IMG/VR virus record: IMGVR_UViG_3300031963_000536
Span: 1-33,967 of that record
DNA: 33,967 bases
Source: a virus
Reading direction: 5' to 3' (one strand)
Made by a program: the position numbers and the translations under genes
The notes under the pieces: model-generated
Told to the model about the DNA's origin: nothing
Seen by the model: the letters and a program-made list of their open reading frames with translations, nothing else
The model's database searches: none
Shown: positions 13,429-31,710 of the stretch, in pieces
Layout: the number at the start of each line of letters is the position of its first letter
How positions within the stretch are numbered: position 1 is the stretch's first letter

Positions 13429-13898
13429 TGCTGAAACCCCGATGATGATTGCGACTCCTTTGAGAGTCTTTCGATTGTTAGTTGTGATTGGATGTCTCCT
13501 TCTAATTTCACACCAGCACGCTTGAGAACAGTCGTCACATACGAATGTTCTACCTTCAGTGCCACTGCGATTTCTTTCGGTGTGCATCCCGACTTAAACA
13601 TCACGCGAACCTTTTCCGCGTTGTTTGCTTTCGGAGCATTTGCATAACGAGCATTGAGCATACGTTTGCGTTGTTCCGTAGTGAAACCAGCCCAAATACC
13701 GCTGCTGATTTCATTGTCGAGTGCGTAGTCCAAGCACTCCTTTCGTTCGGTACAACTTTCGCACAGTGCGCGAATAGTTGGGAGCGACGTTCGCTCTTCT
13801 GCACGTGATTCGGGAAAGAAAATATCTGGATTCTCAATATCCCTGCATTTGGCTTCTGGTAGTTGAGGAAGTATGGGAAGGAATTCAAAGAAATTCAC
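13425..13898 (-). CDS. WhiB-family Fe-S regulator fused to a C-terminal helix-turn-helix
   Basis: Start chosen at GTG 13898, which overlaps the upstream stop (GTGA) and has AAGGAGAGGAT upstream; an in-frame ATG lies at 13916. The 157-residue protein has the four WhiB cysteines (C18, C46, C49, C55 in CESCTERKEC) and the GIWAG turn (67-71), which bind a 4Fe-4S cluster and contact host sigma factor. After the usual end, residues about 94-130 (EKVRVMFKSGCTPKEIAVAL then KVEHSYVTTVLKRAG) look like a separate HTH. Most WhiB proteins are about 80-130 residues with a short basic tail, so this is longer than usual. It probably controls host or phage transcription. Confidence 0.9.
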   Translation of the reverse strand: MNFFEFLPILPQLPEAKCRDIENPDIFFPESRAEERTSLPTIRALCESCTERKECLDYALDNEISSGIWAGFTTEQRKRMLNARYANAPKANNAEKVRVMFKSGCTPKEIAVALKVEHSYVTTVLKRAGVKLEGDIQSQLTIERLSKESQSSSGFQQ

Positions 13899-16351: not shown

Positions 16352-16389
16352 AACCCCTACACGGGAAAGGTGGCCGTGTAGGGGTTTTC
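16352..16389. terminator. Bidirectional intrinsic terminator
   Basis: A 13-bp perfect stem, AACCCCTACACGG (16352-16364) with CCGTGTAGGGGTT (16374-16386), and a nine-base loop. It is followed by TTCTT on the plus strand and by TTCTTTG on the minus strand. It lies between the convergent ends of the rightward operon (16339) and the leftward late block (16410). Confidence 0.92.
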
Positions 16390-22930: not shown

Positions 22931-23326
22931 TTTTCTTTGCCCGCTCCTTCAAATAAATTCCTATTGCTTCCAAGATACCTTCAGGGGCATCAAGCAAGGC
23001 AACAGGAGAAATGCCTGTCTCCACCGCAATTGCTGCAACCGTATAGGTCAGGCTTTCGCGGTGGATTCGGAATTTGGGTCGGCGTCCAACTCTGCATTGA
23101 GAATTGTATCCAAATATTCAGGACCAAATGGCTTCACAATGACGCCATTGACCTGCTGGGCTTTCCAAGCCAACCAATAGATGTGTTCAATTTTTTGCTC
23201 TTCACCTATAAGTTTTGGAAGCCCTTTACCAAAGTTTTGCTCAAATGCGACAATGATTCGTGGTGTTAGTTTGTACACCTGTTCATTACCATCACTTGTT
23301 TTTACTTTTATTGCTAAGCCATCCAT
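22920..23326 (-). CDS. Tail assembly chaperone, -1 frameshift product (GT-type)
   Basis: The upstream ORF (23326 to 23048) would continue after a -1 shift at CCCAAAT (23078-23072) into an open frame ending at 22920, giving about 135 residues. The added part is helical (YTVAAIAVETGISPVALLDA, then ILEAIGIYLKERAKKNGR). This matches the conserved G / GT chaperone arrangement of siphophages, where a few percent of ribosomes slip to make the longer form that recruits tail tube subunits to the tape measure. No start codon with a ribosome site serves the second frame, supporting frameshifting. Confidence 0.85.
23048..23326 (-). CDS. Tail assembly chaperone, short form (G-type)
   Basis: 92 residues from ATG 23326 with ribosome site GGGGGAAAC. 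It contains QVYKLTPRIIVAFEQNFGKG and EHIYWLAWKAQQVNG, a pattern seen in siphophage G-type chaperones, and ends in an Asp/Ser/Thr-rich tail (DADPNSESTAKA) that includes the slippery site. It lies between the tail tube genes and the tape measure. It coats the tape measure before tube assembly. Confidence 0.85.
   Translation of the reverse strand: MDGLAIKVKTSDGNEQVYKLTPRIIVAFEQNFGKGLPKLIGEEQKIEHIYWLAWKAQQVNGVIVKPFGPEYLDTILNAELDADPNSESTAKA
23072..23078 (-). other. Ribosomal slippery heptamer C CCA AAT
   Basis: On the minus strand the heptamer reads CCCAAAT in register C-CCA-AAT with the chaperone frame, the X-XXY-YYZ form of -1 slippery sites. A -1 shift opens the frame continuing to 22920. Confidence 0.85.
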
Positions 23327-23344
23327 TGTTTCCCCCTTAGATTA

Positions 23345-23767
23345 TCAGGATGTTGCTTTTGTAATTGCGCCAGAAATCGGCCAAGTGACCGATACGGTTG
23401 CGAGTTCTCCAACGCTTCCAGATACTGATTGCCATTCTGAAATTAGCGCTGAGAATGAGTAGGAAGGATTGGTTGCAGATGTAGCACCGCTGGTTGGCTT
23501 TACAGTCATTGCAACTGCTGTACCAATCTTTGTTGCTGCATCGCTTGGATAAATCAAGGTTTCAAGAGCGCCAGAAGCAAAGTCCTGGTTGAACTCAAGA
23601 GTGATTTGGTTGTCACGAAGGCCAGCAACACGGGTGCGGCTGGTGTTTGACATACCTGTTGTTTCCACAACATCGAGTGTTGAGGAAAGAGTCACGGATG
23701 TGACATATTGCGAGATGTCAGTGCTTGCCAACACCACATACGCATCAGTTAAAACAATACGGGCCAT
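23345..23767 (-). CDS. Major tail (tube) protein paralog 2
   Basis: 140 residues, beta-rich, starting MARIVLTDAYVVLASTDISQ. The body contains NQITLEFNQDFASGALETLI and the end SGSVGELATVSVTWPISGAI, shared with the gene just upstream (23772-24185) in nearly the same words. Size, fold pattern and position before the chaperone fit a tail tube protein. Two tandem copies imply either a mixed tube or one copy being a specialised ring or decorated form. An HK97-type tube fold is inferred. Confidence 0.85.
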   Translation of the reverse strand: MARIVLTDAYVVLASTDISQYVTSVTLSSTLDVVETTGMSNTSRTRVAGLRDNQITLEFNQDFASGALETLIYPSDAATKIGTAVAMTVKPTSGATSATNPSYSFSALISEWQSVSGSVGELATVSVTWPISGAITKATS

Positions 23768-25370: not shown

Positions 25371-25464
25371 GCTTTTTCCTCTTCTCTGCCTTTGGAGCAA
25401 CTGCCCGTTCTAAATCGGGGGTTGCAGTTGCGGTTTGTTTCCGCCAAAACTTTATTCTTTCCAC
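25312..25464 (-). CDS. Candidate basic protein (50 aa), overlapping connector start
   Basis: A GTG frame from 25464 fills the 81-base gap between the GT-A gene and the connector and runs about 59 bases into it. The product is highly basic (RAVAPKAEKRKKRGTNQR). Ribosome site is weak. It could be a real scaffold-type gene or a shadow of the connector; I cannot decide. Confidence 0.22.
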   Translation of the reverse strand: MERIKFWRKQTATATPDLERAVAPKAEKRKKRGTNQRILHTVRPERIIEH

Positions 25465-26135
25465 GATAGGTGATGTTCCTCTGATAGCCAATAAGACTTT
25501 TGATGTGGCAATACCGCTCCAGTGTGAACATAGATTGGAAAGCCTAATTGTCTTATACGACGGGAAAACAGCAAATCTTCACTAATCCAATTGCCTTCAA
25601 TTGGACCATCCCAGAACCAGCACCAATCTTGGCCTTGATTAGGGTCTGCTTGCTCTCGCATCTTTTCTAACACGCTGCGATGAATCAAAACACATCCAGT
25701 GCCACAGGCGTCAATTTCAAACAAACGATTCTGGTCATACTTGAAAAGCGGCAAGAATCCTTCAGGTGCATCTTGAAAGATTGCTGGCACAGGCTTTGGA
25801 TATAAATGTTTGTGTGCATCAAAGGCTGCAAATACTAAACCTGATACAACTGGTCGCTCTTTATCGTGAGCGGCTTGAATCAAAATATCAAATGCTTCTG
25901 TGGTGAGTTGTTCATCAACATCAATCAACAAAAGCCAATCAGAATCTGTATTGTCAAGAAATGCTTTCACCACACGATTGCGCATCTTTGAAAGCAATCC
26001 AGAGCCTTTGATTCTGACAAATGGCCCTAGTCTGTCGCGGCGGTCTTGGCAGAGTTGAAACATCCGATATGCCCACGCCGCATTGACGGTGCCTGGGTCG
26101 CAGGCGCCGATTGAAACCTTATGTCCTGTTTTCAC
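25452..26135 (-). CDS. GT-A-fold glycosyltransferase-like protein
   Basis: The frame is open from 26204, but GTG 26135 is preferred, with CGGGGGATTCA directly before it, giving 227 residues. It has GACDPGTVNAAW, RNRVVKAFLDNTDSDWLLLI, then IDVDEQL with D72xD74 that binds metal-nucleotide sugar in GT-A enzymes. Later there is EIDACGTGCVLIHRSVLE, WFWDGPIEGNWISEDLLFSR with an acidic ED, and a final HHLSW-type segment. It probably transfers sugar to a virion protein or modifies host glycan; acceptor unknown. The ribosome site lies in a potential hairpin/pseudoknot. Confidence 0.75.
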   Translation of the reverse strand: MKTGHKVSIGACDPGTVNAAWAYRMFQLCQDRRDRLGPFVRIKGSGLLSKMRNRVVKAFLDNTDSDWLLLIDVDEQLTTEAFDILIQAAHDKERPVVSGLVFAAFDAHKHLYPKPVPAIFQDAPEGFLPLFKYDQNRLFEIDACGTGCVLIHRSVLEKMREQADPNQGQDWCWFWDGPIEGNWISEDLLFSRRIRQLGFPIYVHTGAVLPHQKSYWLSEEHHLSWKE

Positions 26136-26136
26136 T

Positions 26137-26202
26137 GAATCCCCCGATTCGTTAGGAAGTGTAGGAGCGGGCAAGTCGGGGGATTCCTGCCCGCCCCTAC
26201 AC
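26137..26202 (-). promoter_or_regulatory. Stem-loop whose loop can pair with the downstream ribosome site: translational control candidate
   Basis: On the minus strand a 15-bp stem (26202-26188 with 26173-26159, one G-T pair) encloses a 14-base loop holding GAATCCCCCGA (26186-26176). Downstream, TCGGGGGATTC (26147-26137) is its perfect 11-base complement. It contains the GGGGGAT ribosome site of the GT gene at 26135. The hairpin may also act as a terminator of the capsid message, although no T-run follows. Confidence 0.65.
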
Positions 26203-26225
26203 AACTATTTAGTTGTTCGTTCTAA

Positions 26226-27566
26226 CTAGAACGATGGTGCAACTAGACCAGTACCGCTGATGATTGAAGCGGCCTTTGGATAGCGCTCTGCTGTGAAAGC
26301 ACCAAAGCCATAAACAACAGTCTTGATGGTTAGGCTGCCAGGGGCAGTTGCATCAAAACGGAGTGAGAATGGTGAACCTGGTTGCTCCCAGAGATGCATT
26401 TCGCGGGCATCAACAAGATAGATTTCATCTTGGTTGGTTGCTGCGCCGTAGTTTGTTGCTACGTTTGCATCTGTGATGATTGGGAGTCCAAGTAGTTGAT
26501 AACCACTGTTTGCGTACTGTGCAACACCTGCGCCAGTTGAAACTGCGTTCTGTGGGCCACCTGCAGTTGGAACAACTACTGGGCGTCCTGCAGTATCAGT
26601 TGCAGCGAGCAAGAATGCTAGACGGCGTGGGTGCATAATCCAGTGAGTTGGTGTTGTGAAAACATTGCTCTGAACTTGCTGTAGAGCATCTGCCAACTTT
26701 GGATATAGCAATGCAACAGTTGGTGTAGTTGCAGTGAAGGTGATTGCGTTTCCACCTGATGCGCGGATTCCCTTGAACTGGCCATTTGAGCCTGTTCCAT
26801 TGAGAACCTGTGAATCAAGTGTTGTGTGCCAGGAGCGGATAAGGTCAGCGATAACGAATGTATCAATGCCTGTTCCACGCTCAATTGCTTGGCGGGATAG
26901 GTCTTGCTGTCCAGCGATTGTGCGTACTGGAACGCTGAGAAGTGTGTCATCAGCATCTGTTTCAGAAACAGCAGTGTTCTGTGTTTCCTGGATTGCTGTT
27001 GAAGTACCAGTCGTCATACGGCTGATTTCAAGTGACATACCAGCAGCAGGAAGAACCATCTTATTGGTTGCGAAATCTGCTGTTGGACGACCTGCACGTG
27101 CCAATGGCGCAGCAAGGTCAACGAGATATTGTGGAACAACAAGTCCAGCGAAGTTGGATGTATCTACATCGCGACGCTCAACTGATTCTTCCTTCATGTG
27201 GCGAGCAAGACGCTCTTGTGCGGAATAGTCTCCGCGTACTTGTGCATTGAACGCATCGCGAACAAAGGAAGTTCCATTGTCTGCGCGATATGTGCGCTCT
27301 TCACGCACGATTGAAGTTGAAGCCTTTGGAAGAGCATCTGCAACAACAGAACGTGCTTCTGCTGCCTTTGCATCTGCTGCTGCCTGTGCAGTCAACTTCT
27401 CAATCTTTGCGTCGAGTGAACGTGATTCTTCTACGAGAGCATCAACCTTGACGGTTTCCTCTGCTGTGAGGTCTGTGCGGTTCTCTGCAGCAACTGCATC
27501 AAGAACTGCATCCATTTCAGCCTTCACTGCATCACGGCGCTCAACAACTTTGTCTAGGTAAGACAT
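26226..27566 (-). CDS. Major capsid protein, HK97 fold with N-terminal scaffold domain
   Basis: 446 residues. The first about 110 residues are helical and charged (VVERRDAVKAEMDAVLDAVA; SLDAKIEKLTAQAAADAKAA), typical of the delta/scaffolding domain removed by the prohead protease. The body has MSLEISRMTTGTSTAIQETQ, RQAIERGTGIDTFVIADLIR, WIMHPRRLAFLLA and NYGAATNQDEIYLVDAREM, the order of HK97-like capsids (E-loop, spine helix, P-domain). Coding lies directly after the protease. No proteolytic domain of its own is seen. It is the main shell subunit and the likely peak-expression late gene. Confidence 0.93.
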   Translation of the reverse strand: MSYLDKVVERRDAVKAEMDAVLDAVAAENRTDLTAEETVKVDALVEESRSLDAKIEKLTAQAAADAKAAEARSVVADALPKASTSIVREERTYRADNGTSFVRDAFNAQVRGDYSAQERLARHMKEESVERRDVDTSNFAGLVVPQYLVDLAAPLARAGRPTADFATNKMVLPAAGMSLEISRMTTGTSTAIQETQNTAVSETDADDTLLSVPVRTIAGQQDLSRQAIERGTGIDTFVIADLIRSWHTTLDSQVLNGTGSNGQFKGIRASGGNAITFTATTPTVALLYPKLADALQQVQSNVFTTPTHWIMHPRRLAFLLAATDTAGRPVVVPTAGGPQNAVSTGAGVAQYANSGYQLLGLPIITDANVATNYGAATNQDEIYLVDAREMHLWEQPGSPFSLRFDATAPGSLTIKTVVYGFGAFTAERYPKAASIISGTGLVAPSF

Positions 27567-29242: not shown

Positions 29243-30630
29243 TATTTGACCTCATATACAGATTCAGGATTTGCAGGGTCAATTGTTGAGACTGCCTGCA
29301 ATTGTGTTGATGGAACTCCAGTGTGCTTGATATTTGGCATCTCCAAAGCCTTGAGAACTGCTGCTGGGTCAAAGCCAACTTGAACAAGTTGAGCAATGAT
29401 TTCAGCACGCAACTTCATACCAACTTCAGGTGCATCTGCAGCATCAATATTCTGCAATGGAACACGGTATTGGTCGCCTGCTTCGCCAAGCGGTGCTAAA
29501 TCTTCTACAGCACGAACATCGTTGAGTGAGAGGAATCCTTCACGAAGTCCTTTTGTGTAAGCGTCATAGCGCTCAAGAGTTGTGCCACGAAGTAGCGCAT
29601 CAAGATTGAACTTGATAAAACCATCTGATTCTGGAAGTAGCGGAGAGAGAGCCTGTTCAATGCGCTCCAACAATGGACGCAATGAGTGTTGCACGAACGA
29701 TAAGTTCTGTGCTTCAACTGATGCAAATGACATTGCACCAGCAACAGGATGACCCAAAAGCGAAATAGGAACGCGGAATAGGCGGGCTATTTCCTCAACC
29801 CCAAAGCGTCGTACTTCAAGCAATTGGGCATCGGCAGCGTTCAAGGTAAGCGGCTTGAAAGACGCTCCACCTGTTAGCACACCGATTTTGCCCGCTCTAT
29901 ATGGGCCAGTGTGAGTGATATTCCAATCGCGAGCCAAGTCATCAACTTGCTCTTGCGTCATCTCACTTGGCGTTTCGATAATGCCACCAGGGTTGGCAGC
30001 ATTTCCAAAATATGAAGCAGCATAAACTTCAGCGGCCATTGCAGAACCAAGAGTTACTCTGGCTGCGCCGATTGGACCTAGACCAAGTAATTGGCCAGGA
30101 AGTCTAAATAGTGGGATGTGAACAATTTCATTTGCGCTAAGTTCAAATGAGAAGTTTCCATAATTATCACGGACAAAATAACGAATAGGTTCTCCAGCAA
30201 TCGGACGTTCAACACGAACATCGCGAGGATTGAGAACATAGAGTTCAAGAACTTCGCCCATTTCATCCATAACTTTGAGGATGAAAGCGTTTCCTTCTAA
30301 GTTCAAAGAAGCAATGATTTGTTCGTAGAACTCAAGACGTGTGGTGCTTGGGTTTGGATTATTGACCCAGTTTGGTGTCTCGCCATAAACAGCAGCGTAG
30401 GAAATACGGTTGCGACCACGGCGCACATATGCACCTAATGGAAGTGAGGAAATCGTGTCGCCCAAGAGTCGAACGCAGGCATACACCGTTGACATACGAA
30501 CTGCTGTTTCAGAGTTGACGTCAACTCCTGCAGGCGATGCATACGCTGGTCTGCCTGGAATCAATGGTTCAACGAACTGATTCTGCGCACGCTTTTCACC
30601 TGCTGCGCGAAGTCTTTTAGATAGACTCAT
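29242..30630 (-). CDS. Portal protein, HK97 type
   Basis: 462 residues. After a short start, VRMSTVYACVRLLGDTISSL and PLGAYVRRGRN mark the family core. Later FYEQIIASLNLEGNAFILKV, DVRVERP, and GVEEIARLFRVPISLLGHP complete the pattern. A helical ending (FLSLNDVRAVEDLAPLGEAG) is the usual crown or barrel region. Its start overlaps the GT4 gene end by 14 bases. It forms the dodecameric ring for DNA packaging and ejection. Confidence 0.93.
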   Translation of the reverse strand: MSLSKRLRAAGEKRAQNQFVEPLIPGRPAYASPAGVDVNSETAVRMSTVYACVRLLGDTISSLPLGAYVRRGRNRISYAAVYGETPNWVNNPNPSTTRLEFYEQIIASLNLEGNAFILKVMDEMGEVLELYVLNPRDVRVERPIAGEPIRYFVRDNYGNFSFELSANEIVHIPLFRLPGQLLGLGPIGAARVTLGSAMAAEVYAASYFGNAANPGGIIETPSEMTQEQVDDLARDWNITHTGPYRAGKIGVLTGGASFKPLTLNAADAQLLEVRRFGVEEIARLFRVPISLLGHPVAGAMSFASVEAQNLSFVQHSLRPLLERIEQALSPLLPESDGFIKFNLDALLRGTTLERYDAYTKGLREGFLSLNDVRAVEDLAPLGEAGDQYRVPLQNIDAADAPEVGMKLRAEIIAQLVQVGFDPAAVLKALEMPNIKHTGVPSTQLQAVSTIDPANPESVYEVK

Positions 30631-31696
30631 TGCCTGCCTTTTCTGCTAAGTGATACCAACCGTCATCCCAGAGGGTTGACAGTCTGAGGAAGTAATCTTC
30701 GTACTCTTTGGCGATAACATCTAAGTTGTATCTGCCAACAGAATGTTCTCTGATTTTCTTTCGGTCTAGTTCTTTGACCTTTTCGGCTGCATCCATAAAC
30801 TCTTGCAGCGTTCTGCAACGGTAGCCTGTTAGACCGTTGATATTGTTTTCAGTAAATGCTCCCCAATCGGTTGTGATTGTTGGAGTACCACAGGCTTGGG
30901 CTTCAATCACCACGTTTCCAAATGGCTCAATGTAGAGAGTTGGAGCAAAGGTTGCGATTGCACCGCCCATTAGTTCTGCCCGATGCTCTGGCCCCACTGA
31001 GCCAACAAACTCTCCATATCCTGATTGTTCACCAGGTCCTGCAAGGATAAGTCTTTTGCCCAATCTTTCGCATACTTCTTGAGCAATGCGAAAACCTTTG
31101 CGTTCAATCAAGCGACCAATGAACAGGTAATAGTCGCCATCACCTTTGCCAAGTGGAAACATCTCTGGCTCTAGGTACCCAGGAATCACAGTGTCAAAGA
31201 ATTGACCATCAACTGCTGTTGGGTTTTTGTGTCCTGCATAGATGCTATGCATCCAGGCGTATGATTCAAAAACGCGAAACTTGCTAAAGACACCGCCATA
31301 ACCAACGCCAAATTCAACGCTGATGTGATTGGGGTATTTATCAGCAATCTCTTTATGGGCATATCCGCCAATGAGACAGATAAAATCTTGCGGCTGGATA
31401 TGGCTTTGCATCAGCCTAATCACATTGGTGTTGAAGATTCTCCAGTGCAGAGCATTGGTATCAAAACTTGCCGATGTGTAGTGGCCGTTGCCAACTGCCT
31501 GCGCCCGTCGCTCTTCTGAGATACAGGTAATGAGTTTTGTAACTGGCGCATCAACCTTTTCGCCAGCGTACAAATAAACTTCGTGACCAAGGCTGGTCAT
31601 CATTATGCAAAAGCGGCGCACCTTCTCTGTGAAAGCACAACCGCTAAATTCTTTTGTTACCTGCGTGTGTGGCAGGCTTACTACGTGAAATCTCAT
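30617..31696 (-). CDS. GT4-like glycosyltransferase in the head operon
   Basis: 359 residues of GT-B type. The N-terminal domain begins MRFHVVSLPHTQVTKEFSGC. The C-terminal domain has DYYLFIGRLIERKGFRIAQE, LILAGPGEQSGYGEF, and FAPTLYIEPFGNVVIEAQAC followed by GTPTITTDWGAF, the EPFGNVxxEAxACGxP motif of GT4 (donor phosphate and sugar binding). It transfers a sugar from an activated nucleotide sugar; the acceptor is unknown. Lying between recombinase and portal, with overlap to portal, it is probably expressed late and may glycosylate virion proteins such as the fibres. Confidence 0.88.
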   Translation of the reverse strand: MRFHVVSLPHTQVTKEFSGCAFTEKVRRFCIMMTSLGHEVYLYAGEKVDAPVTKLITCISEERRAQAVGNGHYTSASFDTNALHWRIFNTNVIRLMQSHIQPQDFICLIGGYAHKEIADKYPNHISVEFGVGYGGVFSKFRVFESYAWMHSIYAGHKNPTAVDGQFFDTVIPGYLEPEMFPLGKGDGDYYLFIGRLIERKGFRIAQEVCERLGKRLILAGPGEQSGYGEFVGSVGPEHRAELMGGAIATFAPTLYIEPFGNVVIEAQACGTPTITTDWGAFTENNINGLTGYRCRTLQEFMDAAEKVKELDRKKIREHSVGRYNLDVIAKEYEDYFLRLSTLWDDGWYHLAEKAGNESI

Positions 31697-31710
31697 ACAT
31701 CCCCCGATGT

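Follow-up and report, generated by a model that had tools for sequence, protein, structure and literature searches.

The viral contig analysed here, in the following called the window, comprises 33,967 bases (IMG/VR virus record IMGVR_UViG_3300031963_000536, positions 1 to 33,967). Its minus strand carries a series of genes that runs from the portal over the prohead protease and the major capsid protein (MCP) to the glycosyltransferase GT2 and a head-tail connector; a second glycosyltransferase, GT1, is found on the same strand. The main subject of this work is a hairpin that begins about 24 nt downstream of the capsid stop codon. Between this stop and the main stem lies a further small hairpin, ACAACTAAATAGTTGT (window 26201-26216, minus strand), which is present in several close relatives only. 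Elsewhere in the window, a perfect 13-bp hairpin (AACCCCTACACGG/CCGTGTAGGGGTT, 16352-16386) followed by TTTTC is, judging from its sequence, a probable terminator. The features discussed are collected in Table 1.

Table 1. Features of the capsid-GT2 junction and of related gene starts (window positions, except for the last line).
Feature	Position	Strand	Evidence
Major capsid protein gene	26226..27566	-	PF05065 5e-17; phrog_2263 major head protein
Conserved stem, 5' arm GTGTAGGGGCGGGCAGG	26202-26186	-	fold; covariation in 38 representatives
Loop AATCCCCCGA, with invariant anti-SD core CCCCCGA at 26182-26176	26185-26176	-	CCCCCG[A/G] in all capsid-anchored relatives
Conserved stem, 3' arm CTTGCCCGCTCCTACAC	26175-26159	-	fold, covariation, G-U vs A-C asymmetry
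SD mini-hairpin GAATC-GGGG-GATTC with Shine-Dalgarno GGGGGA; TCGGGGGATTC complementary to loop	26137-26150	-	
Glycosyltransferase GT2, GTG start	25452..26135	-	PF00535 6e-5; phrog_34859 9e-28
Glycosyltransferase GT1	30617..31696	-	PF00534 2e-13; phrog_3408 3e-71
GT1 SD mini-hairpin ACATC-GGGG-GATGT, directly before ATG; complementary to CCCCCGA loop, candidate trans target	31697..31710	-	
Small-protein SD mini-hairpins in relatives	L628 9334, L630 6884, L632 9656, L634 7999	- (reversed-sequence coordinates)	

Regarding the host, the capsids of the nearest isolates belong to mycobacteriophages (36-39% identity), and the window contains a whiB-like gene (13659-13856, minus strand), a marker of actinobacterial phages. 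Because of these two features we infer an actinobacterial host. A search of GenBank phages for DNA similarity to this phage gave no match, and a search of cellular genomes for prophage relatives of the capsid also gave none. The phage family carrying the element is large, apparently uncultivated and probably actinobacterial.

Minus-strand positions 26202-26159 form a hairpin of 17 bp, G-U wobble included, with the main stem by itself reaching ~-32 kcal/mol. The 15-bp stem and 14-nt loop described in the original prediction are obtained when the last two pairs of this hairpin are left open. Folding of the region, which had been proposed there as a check, yielded a strong structure: 121 nt fold to -42.7 kcal/mol, compared to -28.6 for shuffles (z -4.1), and 0/200 shuffles were equally stable. 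The loop segment GAATCCCCCGA (26186-26176) is, as had been stated, the exact reverse complement of TCGGGGGATTC (26147-26137) over 11 nt, and at 0 mismatches the window holds just this one pair of copies. Also the placement of the downstream copy on the ribosome site of the glycosyltransferase was correct, as TCGGGGGATTC carries the Shine-Dalgarno sequence (SD) GGGGGA of the GTG-started GT2.

To obtain relatives, three capsid searches of IMG/VR were carried out and the DNA downstream of the capsid gene was inspected without requiring any motif, counting relatives with enough downstream sequence. The element was present in 96/96 distinct capsid-downstream regions with capsid identities of 68-100%, a set that includes some loci recruited via the loop pattern itself, and in 44/44 of a further (third) set, judged by inspection. 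The stems of these relatives measure 14-17 bp and are extremely diverse in sequence yet all paired, e.g. GTGTAGGGGCGGGCA, GTTTAGGTGGCTTAA, GCACAGAGCAGGTGAG, GTAAGAGGCGGGTT and TGTGTGGCCGGCGATG. The covariation that the original prediction had recommended to look for in related phages proved to be strong in the stem. Among 38 representatives, all 15 of 15 stem pairs show double changes, 91% of the cells are paired, and there are 166 double-changed cells vs 46 in shuffles (0/500); the covariation score is 0.80, compared to at most 0.22 in slid registers.

A G-U pair on one strand reads as A-C on the opposite strand, and of the 924 cells of 66 distinct stems 816 are Watson-Crick, 95 G-U and just one A-C. 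From this asymmetry it follows that the selection target is the RNA of the capsid-GT2 transcript, and not DNA or the RNA of the opposite strand. While the stem sequence turns over, the loop CCCCCG[A/G] and the SD GGGGG stay invariant. The hairpin with the C5 loop occurs once per record examined; further CCCCCGA copies on the sense strands of relatives were considered as additional hairpins and rejected, being coding or unstructured. Altogether, there is strong support for a conserved RNA element where the capsid and glycosyltransferase genes meet.

The second component of the junction is the GT2 start. The GTG at 26135-26133 is kept as GTG or ATG at the same position in relatives, and a 250-aa reading frame that would run from an upstream TTG through the hairpin was rejected, as the conserved start comes after the SD. 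The GGGGG SD is found in 59/59 distinct GT2 leaders; capsid leaders have AGGAG instead of GGGGG. In most GT2 leaders this SD is itself enclosed in a mini-hairpin of the design arm-C-GGGG-G-arm, with covarying arms (31 double-changed cells vs 10) and two inner pairs that hardly vary. This mini-hairpin was detected in 52/59 (88%) of the distinct GT2 leaders vs 14% with shuffled flanks and in 12/15 (80%) of the GT1 leaders vs 9% with shuffled flanks, and in 0-18% of the leaders of nine other genes. In the case of a tail gene, GGGGG is present as SD in 33/33 leaders and the mini-hairpin in 3%. The junction thus contains two hairpins with complementary loops, the C5GA hairpin and the GGGG-loop SD hairpin, both of which covary.

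Complementarity between the CCCCC loop and the GGGGG SD exists in all MCP-anchored relatives, with runs of 5-11 bp and duplex energies of -12 to -22 kcal/mol. The run is usually 5-9 bp, 11 bp being particular to this phage. A pairing of such length had been held unlikely by chance; the 11 bp are real, but the length is partly explained because the SD copy is itself the mini-hairpin GAATC-GGGG-GATTC, and 1/47 distinct loop/SD combinations among the relatives reaches 11 bp. Co-evolution of loop and SD, sought in the flanks, was not found (native run 7.51 bp, swapped 7.42, P about 0.17). The absence of compensatory changes between the two segments in homologous phages had been named in advance as a refutation of the pairing, and no such changes were found; this test cannot be passed, because the cores of loop and SD are both invariant. 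Conservation of GGGGG was also considered as proof of pairing and is weakened by the tail-gene control (33/33, without the hairpin). GGGGG serves as SD for several other genes of the window and is common in this role in the phage; since it is also fixed in the hairpin-less tail gene, its conservation may have other causes.

The linker bears on the geometry of a possible contact. In this phage, 11 nt precede TCGGGGG, an adequate length for crossing the stem. In some clades the distance between a 16-bp stem and GGGGG is ~5 nt; from A-form geometry, such a linker seems insufficient for an intact H-type pseudoknot in cis. Loop and SD could meet in these clades only if the stem melted in part or if another RNA molecule were involved. 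Of the pseudoknot that was originally suggested, the complementary invariant core stands in all relatives, and the simple cis form is sterically doubtful at ~5-nt linkers. Loop-SD contact as such is what the two complementary loops suggest.

Our main reading, to which we assign a probability of roughly 0.52, is that the element is a translational riboregulator, its C-rich loop masking the G-rich SD loop and so lowering GT2 beside the capsid. The 3' UTR of the capsid mRNA would display the invariant CCCCCGA loop on its stem of 14-17 bp, and the small hairpin downstream would present the GGGGG SD of GT2. Both loops could then base-pair over 5-9 bp (11 in this phage), be it as a loop-loop kiss, as a cis pseudoknot or between RNA molecules, and this pairing would stop ribosome binding at GT2. 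The duplex energies given above would be sufficient for masking of the SD. As an outcome, few enzyme molecules would be made next to hundreds of capsid subunits, with later release perhaps via a factor or ribosome traffic. In this way the element probably tunes the amount of an enzyme encoded next to the abundant capsid, by a putative repression of GT2.

The loop complementarity could also be secondary, with the hairpin serving as a post-capsid attenuator or as an mRNA 3'-end or processing structure, in which case the strong stem would reduce transcription past the capsid gene or shield its 3' end. The position directly after the capsid gene and the ~-32 kcal/mol of the stem alone would suit such a role; strong hairpins are also found after the capsid genes of related mycobacteriophages (L203-L206), and phage T7 has a partial terminator behind its capsid gene. 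However, the stem has no U-tract, the next bases being TTCCTAACGAA, and the site is absent from the terminator scan, which disfavours the terminator alternative raised at the outset. A terminator would also leave unexplained the invariant 7-nt loop that matches the next SD, as well as the covarying SD mini-hairpin. Overall we regard this explanation as rather unlikely.

A protein that binds the loop has to be taken seriously as a rival reading, even if we consider it improbable. Here, a protein of the phage or of the host, be it the capsid, the glycosyltransferase or another, would recognise the CCCCCGA loop as an operator and control GT2 or the capsid mRNA, in the way known for the MS2 coat protein and its operator hairpin. 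The loop is fixed and the stem sequence free, and the GA of the loop is retained even in relatives that have lost the matching TC, where no pairing of these bases with the SD is possible; this retention also tells against the masking account. The post-capsid hairpins of the mycobacteriophages Courthouse and WXIN (L204 from 2853, L206 from 2874) show a comparable pattern, with one common loop, ATATAGC, on different stems, which is what a factor binding the loop would promote; this loop is not complementary to the next SD. A protein operator alone, however, does not explain the exact complementarity to the adjoining SD.

SD mini-hairpins are not confined to GT2. In the case of GT1, the arms covary in relatives (GGTC/GACC, GATTC/GAATC, TAGAATC/GATTCTA) and GGGG is fixed in 13/15 distinct leaders. 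In 1.09 Mb of relatives, 64/88 GGGG-loop hairpins lie at gene starts, and glycosyltransferases of four kinds account for 53 of these 64; the other gene starts include those of a small protein of ~105 aa and of a primase, besides single cases. The small protein gene (window 13031) has relatives with the SD mini-hairpins ATTC-GGGG-GAAT and TGATTC-GGGG-GAATCA. The SD hairpins are therefore a small family across genes, complementary to the C5 loop, and a regulon strictly of glycosyltransferases is weakened as an idea by the mini-hairpins at some other genes. A tail-assembly-chaperone-like gene (window 23326-23345, minus strand), which follows two major-tail-like genes, has a GGGGG SD in 33/33 distinct relatives, lacks the mini-hairpin and is a possible further target of the C5 loop.

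Action in trans is conceivable because of the short linkers and the complementarity to the leaders of GT1, GT3 and GT4. In its widest form, the capsid 3' UTR hairpin would be a master antisense regulator working both in cis and in trans, so that the level of capsid mRNA silences a small regulon. A single C5GA loop would then kiss the SD mini-hairpins that occur at GT2 starts almost without exception, at the majority of GT1 starts and at the GT3 and GT4 starts, and those of a few non-glycosyltransferase genes. We consider this extended version doubtful.

It is quite improbable that loop and SD are conserved separately and never pair, GGGGG being simply a favoured SD class and the complementarity coincidental. 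The GGGGG SDs at several window genes and the lack of loop-SD co-evolution would agree with coincidence, but a chance match of a 7-nt invariant loop to the next SD is unlikely (~30 positions x 4^-7, our own estimate), and the choice of SD is gene-specific, as the capsid and other leaders show. Finally, the mobile nested palindrome or MITE-like element considered initially is excluded by a single copy in the window, an always constant site and divergent stems unrelated in sequence, 105/105 hairpin-bearing new viral pattern matches lying within contigs of the capsid/GT2 family.

The absence of a named riboregulator, as originally noted, was confirmed with Rfam 15, which gave 0 matches over the whole window at the gathering threshold; with E values up to 5 nothing credible appeared, the best local match being mir-6794 (23.6 vs a threshold of 74 bits). 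In 84,980 cellular genomes, the loop plus SD pattern matched 92 stretches; few of these have a hairpin, and none belongs to the capsid/GT2 family. These matches are chance-like; one in Olsenella (L581), beside a terminator-like hairpin, was set aside as looking like chance. No description of the element was found in a literature search of partial coverage. We are thus dealing with a strongly covarying RNA element that has no Rfam match, is present in all relatives examined of a large phage family, and connects glycosyltransferases that modify virion or host with the production of capsid. Should the loop act as proposed, the phage would set the ratio of structural protein to enzyme by RNA alone, and perhaps one hairpin would reach several genes. 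Loop, stem and SD can be altered independently, so that the model is clean and quickly testable.

Several known systems resemble parts of this arrangement. SD-masking H-type pseudoknots are known from the preQ1-I and SAM-II riboswitches, the rpsO/S15 operator and the T4 gene 32 leader. Common to them and the phage element is a hairpin loop able to pair with the SD of the gene that follows downstream; unlike them, the phage element has a stem of 14-17 bp instead of a short one, has no ligand core, keeps the SD in its own mini-hairpin and in some clades has too short a linker. The T7 partial terminator Tphi shares the strong hairpin immediately behind the major capsid gene, and differs in that the phage element lacks a U-tract and has an invariant loop whose bases complement the SD of the following gene. 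In E. coli, the sRNA OxyS masks the fhlA ribosome site in a kissing complex, in which a hairpin loop pairs with the SD inside the loop of another hairpin and prevents ribosome binding (PMC2946933); OxyS is a separate host sRNA, whereas the phage loop is part of the capsid 3' UTR and precedes its target by a short distance. In the case of S. aureus RNAIII, the conserved C-rich apical loops of hairpins 7, 13 and 14 are aimed from their stems at the G-rich SDs of several mRNAs, namely rot, coa and spa (PMC2837412). RNAIII is a long bacterial regulatory RNA with no sequence or genomic relation to the phage element, which is one short hairpin. Overall, the mode of regulation would be of a known kind, and it is the anatomy and the location that are unusual.
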